Assembly: GCA_001896725.1 (NCBI GenBank)
Contig: MPPA01000001.1
Coordinates: 124,001 to 188,000, forward strand
Length of the DNA: 64,000 nt
Source of the DNA: Methanococcoides sp. EBM-47
GTDB lineage: Archaea; Halobacteriota; Methanosarcinia; Methanosarcinales; Methanosarcinaceae
Direction of reading: 5' to 3'
A program made the translations under genes and the position numbers. Within the stretch, counting starts at the first letter, position 1. Each line of letters opens with the position of its first letter. This document shows positions 6,107 to 15,866 of this stretch, one piece after another. Under the pieces are notes generated by a model. It saw only the letters and a list, made by a program, of their open reading frames with translations, did not search any database and had not been told where the DNA came from.

Positions 6107-6775
6107 TCATTCAACACCTTTAGAAGTTATGGTAAACTCGCAACTTATACCTTCAGGAAGAGAACGATGTTTTCTAAGGACAGCACGCCGTTTTCCATCG
6201 CTTAGGCGCTCTAATTGTATAATGGTCTTGGATATGTGCTCGATTATATTACCACCCACAGGCCTCAGCACTCCTGAAAGAACATCTGTGTATACCTGAT
6301 TAGTTATGACAACCACCATGTTATATTTCCTTGCAAGGCTATGTAGAAAACCTATCTGACCGCCAAGTTCGCGTCTTGCCCTTAGGGCAGAATCGTCCTG
6401 TTCCAGTTCGAATCTGTAAAAGGCGGTGGCAGAGTCTACTATTATAAGGCCGATGTTCTCTTTGATGACCTTTTCAAGTTCTCTTACCGCTGCGTGCTGT
6501 TCTTCAAAACTATGAGGTTCATAGATTATTATCTGCTGAGCTATTTCCTTTGCTTTTTCTCCTGCCATTTGTCTGAACCTGCTGGGAGAAATACCTTCAG
6601 TATCGATGAATATGACCTTTTTGTCTTGCTCTACACACCTTATGGCAAGCTGAAGACACAGATTTGTTTTACCGCTGCCAGCTTCTCCAAAAAGCTGTGT
6701 CACAACTCCAGTTTCCAGCCCTCCTTCAAGGAGATTATCCAGTGATTTACAGCCTGATGCTAAATGTGGATCTAT
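6107..6775 (-). CDS. radB: DNA repair and recombination protein RadB (candidate ATA start)
   Basis: A RecA/RadA paralogue of archaea, a recombination mediator that modulates RadA. The core shows Walker A (GEAGSGKT), IFIDTEG, Walker B (GLIIVDSATAFYRFE) and the C-terminal SLPEGISCEFTITSKGVE. The first ATG/GTG/TTG in frame is a GTG at 6703, which puts Walker A five residues from the N-terminus and removes the conserved LASGCKSLDNLLEGGLE segment. Reading upstream restores that segment to an ATA at 6775-6773, preceded by AGAGGTG with a five-base spacer; beyond it the frame meets TAG. From ATA the protein is 222 aa, the normal RadB length. A second candidate is a start I cannot recognise; a sequencing error is possible. 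Confidence 0.9.
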   Translation of the reverse strand: MDPHLASGCKSLDNLLEGGLETGVVTQLFGEAGSGKTNLCLQLAIRCVEQDKKVIFIDTEGISPSRFRQMAGEKAKEIAQQIIIYEPHSFEEQHAAVRELEKVIKENIGLIIVDSATAFYRFELEQDDSALRARRELGGQIGFLHSLARKYNMVVVITNQVYTDVLSGVLRPVGGNIIEHISKTIIQLERLSDGKRRAVLRKHRSLPEGISCEFTITSKGVE

Positions 6776-6787
6776 GTGAACACCTCT
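6773..6787 (-). promoter_or_regulatory. SD (AGAGGTG) plus ATA start of radB
   Basis: On the minus strand AGAGGTG (6787-6781) is followed by TTCAC and ATA (6775-6773). The SD is fully complementary to the usual archaeal 16S rRNA 3' end. No ATG, GTG or TTG exists in this frame between the upstream TAG and position 6703. Confidence 0.65.
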
Positions 6788-7104
6788 TGAGATTACTTGC
6801 TATATGGGAATAGTTTATATCATCTTTTTGTACAGACGTATTGTGATCATATTTGATAACAATCCATTAATACTGGCCGTTCATACCTACCATATTTGTT
6901 ACCAAATACAGATCTTATGTATGTAAATGTGCTGTGAAAAACCATTATTAACCTCTAGGTCATTTGTATAAATTACCTTTAAACGAGAGATCAAATCAAT
7001 TGAGAAGGGGTTACCGATTGTGTTTTTGAAATGGACCCTGGGAACACCTGCTCATAAATTAATTATATATAAAAAGGATGATAAAAATTAATGGACGCGA
7101 GAAA
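6776..7104. promoter_or_regulatory. Intergenic region with the promoter of the nrd operon
   Basis: AT-rich spacer between radB and the glutaredoxin gene. A TATA-like box, aattatatataaaaa, lies at 7061-7075. Transcription starting ~25 bases downstream would begin after the ATG at 7078, which argues for the glutaredoxin start at 7105. The rest holds nothing I can name. Confidence 0.5.
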
Positions 7105-15344: not shown

Positions 15345-15866
15345 TTAACTTATTTTTCTTGATACTCTTTCTATAGCTTCTATCAAGCTGTTCCTTGGCA
15401 TGATCGTGGCCACTGGGATTCTCAGTATTTTTTCCACGGTAGGACTTACAATAGGTGCGCATACCAAAGCACGTGCCCCTTCCCGTTCTGCTCTAACCGC
15501 AGCAATAATGGCCTCTTCTATGGAGGTGGCAGAATATTCCCTTATAGTACAGAGATTTCCTCCTATCTTTTTCTTTGTTTCTCTTATATTGTCAAGCACT
15601 GGCCTTGCAGCAATGACAGCTATAAAATTTCCCTTTTCGGCATTTTGCAGTCTCTTTATGGTTTTAATTATCTGCCTCAAGGTTTTCATATTAGGCTCCC
15701 TTTTGTCTGACATTATCTTGTATAAAGTGCTCGCAGGTATGTTCGCCTCCTGTGCAAATTCCACTGCGGTCAGACCAAGATCTTCTTTCAATATTAAAGA
15801 AAATGTTCTCTGGAACTCTTCATAAGAATCGATAATAGCATCCATCACCCTATCTGATGGTTCCAT
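15345..15866 (-). CDS. Archaeal HTH (XRE-like) transcriptional regulator
   Basis: 173 aa. Residues ~30-70 form a Cro/C1-type helix-turn-helix (LTAVEFAQEANIPASTLYKI with recognition helix and KREPNMKTLRQI). The C-terminal domain (ARPVLDNIRETKKKIGGNL onward) resembles a PrpR-like sensor domain found with HTHs in archaea. The start at 15866 is chosen because GGAGG lies four bases upstream; the ATG at 15884 overlaps that SD. It is divergent from the ABC transporter operon, which it probably controls (inference). Confidence 0.8.
   Translation of the reverse strand: MEPSDRVMDAIIDSYEEFQRTFSLILKEDLGLTAVEFAQEANIPASTLYKIMSDKREPNMKTLRQIIKTIKRLQNAEKGNFIAVIAARPVLDNIRETKKKIGGNLCTIREYSATSIEEAIIAAVRAEREGARALVCAPIVSPTVEKILRIPVATIMPRNSLIEAIERVSRKIS

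Follow-up and report, generated by a model that had tools for sequence, protein, structure and literature searches.

An AUA codon conserved across the Methanosarcinaceae as the probable start of radB and a putative throttle on RadB

The radB locus and its product

The window analysed here, a stretch of 64,000 nucleotides from Methanococcoides sp. EBM-47, carries on its minus strand the DNA-repair gene radB, the frame of which appears to open with AUA, a very rare start codon (Table 1). This frame reads TAG CAA GTA ATC TCA AGA GGT GTT CAC ATA GAT CCA CAT TTA GCA TCA GGC TGT and remains open to a TGA at 6109-6107. An earlier reading made from the letters alone (the sequence-only reading) had proposed that radB starts at this ATA behind a Shine-Dalgarno (SD) sequence, AGAGGTG, with a 5-nt spacer. 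It had also placed the conserved N-terminus of RadB upstream of every standard start codon (ATG, GTG or TTG) of the frame, and a closing TAG further up. We found each of these elements, the first standard codon being a GTG that lies inside the conserved N-terminus. The open reading frame (ORF) beginning at this GTG is the version listed by mechanical ORF calling. However, initiation there would cost RadB 24 residues, among them the conserved LASGCKSLDNLLEGG.

Table 1. Coordinates of the radB features, and of one further gene discussed below, in the window
Feature	Position	Strand	Basis
radB from its predicted AUA start codon to the TGA, 222 residues	6107..6775	-	reading frame and family models
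radB AUA start codon (predicted)	6773..6775	-	frame and aligned codon in relatives
SD sequence AGAGGTG, 5-nt spacer to AUA	6781..6787	-	sequence
In-frame TAG, 9 codons upstream of the radB AUA, no ATG/GTG/TTG between	6800..6802	-	sequence
GTG, first standard start codon in the radB frame	6701..6703	-	sequence; inside conserved N-terminus
HTH protein, ATG-start counterpart	15345-15866	-	aligned start codon

The product scores 266.9 bits (E=1.3e-79) on the RadB model TIGR02237, above the cut-off of 172.4, and 232.9 on a second RadB model, NF006861, which is below the cut-off of 278 of that model. As expected for RadB, it is short, lacks the N-terminal domain of RadA and has its Walker A motif near the N-terminus. 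The closest solved chain is that of RadB 2cvf. Since residue 2 of this chain aligns to residue 5 of the query, the AUA start would give RadB an N-terminus of normal length. The gene is single-copy in the genome, the next-best match being RadA, for which RadB acts as a recombination mediator in Haloferax (PMC5480776).

Conservation of the start codon in the Methanosarcinaceae

The sequence-only reading had called for a comparison with the RadB N-termini of relatives. Once identical start windows had been removed, the set from this family of methane-producing archaea comprised 84 distinct radB starts. The start codon is ATA in 79 of them and ATC in the five others, all from Methanimicrococcus; none is ATG, GTG or TTG. 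ATA is thus the codon in every sampled genus except Methanimicrococcus, i.e. Methanomethylovorans, Methanolobus, Methanococcoides, Methanohalophilus, Methanosalsum, Methanosarcina and unnamed genera. Methanohalobium also has ATA, displaced by one codon. An SD sequence of the GAGGTG type precedes nearly all 84 starts, mostly with a spacer of 5-7 nt. Hence, an AUH start (AUA, AUU or AUC) behind an SD sequence is conserved across genera, and its family-wide spread goes beyond what the sequence-only reading had claimed. Because the same codon occurs in the rest of the family, chance and sequencing error are excluded as its origin. An error or a mutation private to this genome, in which case resequencing would give ATG, is refuted by the relatives, dozens of independent assemblies carrying the same codon, and its probability is practically nil.

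Translation might nevertheless start elsewhere, at the GTG contained in the SD sequence, at an ATG or TTG further upstream or at the downstream GTG that mechanical calling retains. The GTG of the SD sequence is indeed the sole upstream standard codon in 17 of the 84 starts, and other in-frame standard codons lie upstream in 22. However, in the 45 others, as in the gene of the window, the stretch from the preceding in-frame stop codon to the start is free of such codons. Furthermore, the alternatives vary between genomes whereas the ATA is fixed behind the SD sequence, and the downstream GTG would strip conserved residues. At several loci, a stop even stands one or two codons ahead of the ATA (e.g. 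GAGGTG TAG TAA ATA at L035). We therefore regard initiation at another codon as improbable. From this conservation, we infer that the AUA is used, and it is very probably a real and strongly conserved start codon; this is by far the best reading of the locus and relatives agree with it throughout the family.

Two particular cases were noticed among the radB loci. At L058 (G014:C48), radB gives a two-piece match in an open frame of 334 residues, as if a long insertion followed residue 58 or so. At L027 and L030, radB has a KaiC-like gene as neighbor.

Constraint on the third base

Changes at the third base were counted by parsimony on a tree of 71 full radB genes; the results are bound to that tree and offer a comparison, not a formal test. 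The third base of the start codon changed once. By contrast, each of the ten conserved isoleucine columns underwent 10-23 third-base changes and each of the 29 conserved fourfold columns 11 or more; the 84 other conserved codons have a median of 16.5 with a minimum of 3. Since one change stands against a median of 16.5 elsewhere, the aligned sequences indicate that the start codon behaves neither as an ordinary isoleucine codon nor as a neutral site.

The AUA could be a relic that is not under selection and is tolerated thanks to its strong SD sequence, and strong SD sequences do commonly accompany non-AUG starts (PMC5622118). However, AUG is a single transition away and yet absent from all 84 starts, while other conserved third bases changed many times. 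In addition, changes toward AUG outnumber changes away from it among prokaryotic start codons (PMC5622118). There is thus little probability that the codon is a mere relic. The adenine might also be kept for an overlapping RNA- or DNA-binding element, initiation being incidental, given that the SD sequence and the ATA make one conserved block. Against this, the flanking bases and the distance from the SD sequence to the ATA vary, no structure was seen and Methanimicrococcus carries ATC, so that such an element is very improbable.

radB in other families and the RadA control

Families are given here by names that derive from named loci and are partly inferred. RadB of the Methanotrichaceae (f7), the Methanocellaceae (f15), f10 and most other families belongs to the same protein family and begins 3-9 codons before the motif SGxxxLDxLLGGG, but with ATG, in a few cases GTG or TTG, instead of ATA. 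In the Methanoperedenaceae (f5, Methanoperedens), most genomes carry ATA, ATT or ATC in the same column, and a few carry ATG. Four of these loci (L137, L141, L143 and L147) have a radB frame without any standard start; at many of the others, a GTG lies in the SD region. In the f18 lineage (L200-L202), radB has a possible ATC where an f22 relative (L204) has ATG, and an in-frame GTG in the SD sequence is also possible. AUH starts are therefore less certain in the Methanoperedenaceae, these four loci excepted, and in f18, since the GTG of the SD region may be the start. As for the RadA control, each of the 27 starts read is ATG, with a GGAG-type SD sequence upstream.

Proposed mechanism

We propose that radB is translated by non-AUG initiation at the AUA by means of a strong SD sequence, and that selection keeps this arrangement as a throttle on RadB. 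Taken as a whole, this account is likely. The usual initiator tRNA would read the AUA with two of the three codon bases paired and the third mismatched, the GAGGTG sequence 5-7 nt upstream positioning it there. Start-codon proofreading, in which aIF1, aIF1A and aIF2 would take part, should make this initiation inefficient; aIF1-dependent proofreading opposes mismatched starts in archaeal initiation (PMC6412873). The efficiency of the AUA is thus probably low. Selection would maintain this inefficiency, the AUA acting as a fixed throttle that holds RadB low relative to RadA and its AUG start, and cells may need little RadB. If so, RadB dosage is likely to be under selection. Two points weigh against this account: (i) a minority of the genomes offer an upstream ATG or TTG, or the GTG of the SD sequence, as a possible start instead and (ii) low expression as a selected trait is argued from bacterial analogy and not from an archaeal measurement.

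A dedicated initiator tRNA with a UAU anticodon could also read the AUA. However, no such anticodon was found among the 30 of 42 tRNA loci that were read in the genome, which has isoleucine tRNAs with GAU as well as CAU tRNAs, and we give this explanation hardly any credence. Alternatively, the AUA may be a regulated start, the use of which would vary with initiation stringency (level of aIF1, supply of Met-tRNAi, growth rate) and would tie repair capacity to physiology, as the AUU of infC senses IF3. The efficiency of the AUA of ccpN in Staphylococcus aureus does depend on the medium (PMC13009471), and AUH starts are common to several genes here (see below). However, there is no obvious feedback loop, as RadB is not an initiation factor, and local folding revealed no conserved structure in the 5' leader of radB (mean z 0.28, start mostly unpaired). 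A regulated start is therefore possible but rather unlikely.

Comparison with known AUH starts

Among bacteria, a few genes are known in which selection keeps an AUH start. In infC, which encodes IF3 and starts with AUU in Escherichia coli (PMC9410913) and AUA in S. aureus (PMC13009471), an AUH start behind an SD sequence has been kept over long evolutionary spans, as in radB. However, IF3 represses its own non-AUG start, whereas RadB is a recombinase paralogue without known role in initiation, and archaeal initiation relies on aIF1, aIF1A and aIF2 instead. Autoregulation of the infC type, where the product discriminates against its own start, does not apply to radB, the product of which is RadB according to the family models and not an initiation factor. 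The E. coli gene pcnB, which also starts with AUU (PMC9410913), is comparable to radB in that it encodes a nucleic-acid enzyme, poly(A) polymerase, the expression of which is described as limited by its poor start codon. It is one bacterial gene, whereas radB has AUH starts, mostly AUA, in a whole archaeal family.

Like radB, ccpN (AUA), cvfC1 (AUU) and citZ (AUA) of S. aureus have AUH starts with an extended SD sequence, those of ccpN and cvfC1 being conserved. In reporters grown in poor medium, these three starts gave about 10% of the expression obtained with AUG (PMC13009471). They are bacterial genes with other functions and their starts were mapped by experiment, whereas that of radB is deduced from sequence. 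Ribo-seq data have been published for M. mazei (PMC11456600).

According to a 2021 review, elongation and termination are the only stages for which non-canonical translation events have been demonstrated in archaea (PMC8211752), and we found no report of an AUA start in radB or in archaea in the open-licence literature. A family-wide AUA start on a recombination gene, together with the other AUH genes, would extend the phenomenon to archaeal initiation. Furthermore, start calling restricted to ATG, GTG and TTG would misplace or truncate AUH genes.

Other genes with AUH starts

The rarity of AUH starts was estimated from syntenic stretches by an SD-aware scan for aligned starts. An earlier scan, which looked for conserved coding sequence ahead of the standard starts, had returned mostly shadow ORFs and conserved leaders. 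Among 67 orthologous genes around the window, only radB and one shadow ORF were flagged. Among 283 genes of two Methanococcoides-type genomes, there were five: radB, three other convincing genes and one internal ATT. The sharing of AUH starts by other genes, like their spread in radB, had not been part of the sequence-only reading.

A TrkA_N-DHH-DHHA1 protein (L389-L410) has an apparent AUU or AUA start behind GGAGGT in five genera: ATA in Methanococcoides-type genomes and ATT or ATA in Methanohalophilus, Methanolobus, Methanosalsum and Methanomethylovorans. The start is TTG in Methanosarcina and ATG in g4. The gene carried by the genome of the window itself, counted here under Methanomethylovorans (L410, G000:C44, around 107650), is among those with ATT or ATA, and at some loci the frame lacks any standard start. 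An HTH protein (L359-L363) has ATT or ATA in Methanococcoides-type genomes, whereas its counterparts in the other genera read, among them the window gene at 15345-15866, have ATG at the aligned codon. A thermosome subunit (L419-L423) has an apparent ATC start behind GGAGG in Methanococcoides-type genomes, the other genera having mostly TTG, or ATG. The exchange of AUH and AUG at one aligned codon, in the HTH gene as in radB of the Methanoperedenaceae, is what true starts would show.

The Methanosarcinaceae and Methanoperedenaceae might possess an unannotated class of AUH-start genes (radB, the TrkA_N-DHH protein, the HTH regulator, the thermosome subunit and others) with an output governed jointly by start-codon stringency, i.e. 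an archaeal translational regulon. We consider such a regulon unlikely. The AUH genes of the Methanosarcinaceae would be natural substrates for testing start selection that depends on aIF1.

Two further loci were noticed. A bactofilin-like protein (L337, 13632-14513, minus strand) has a conserved N-terminus upstream of its first ATG and a possible AUC start. A small protein (L319-L338 joined, around 331758-332316, minus strand) has ATG in G007 and ATA at the aligned codon of its G088 orthologue.
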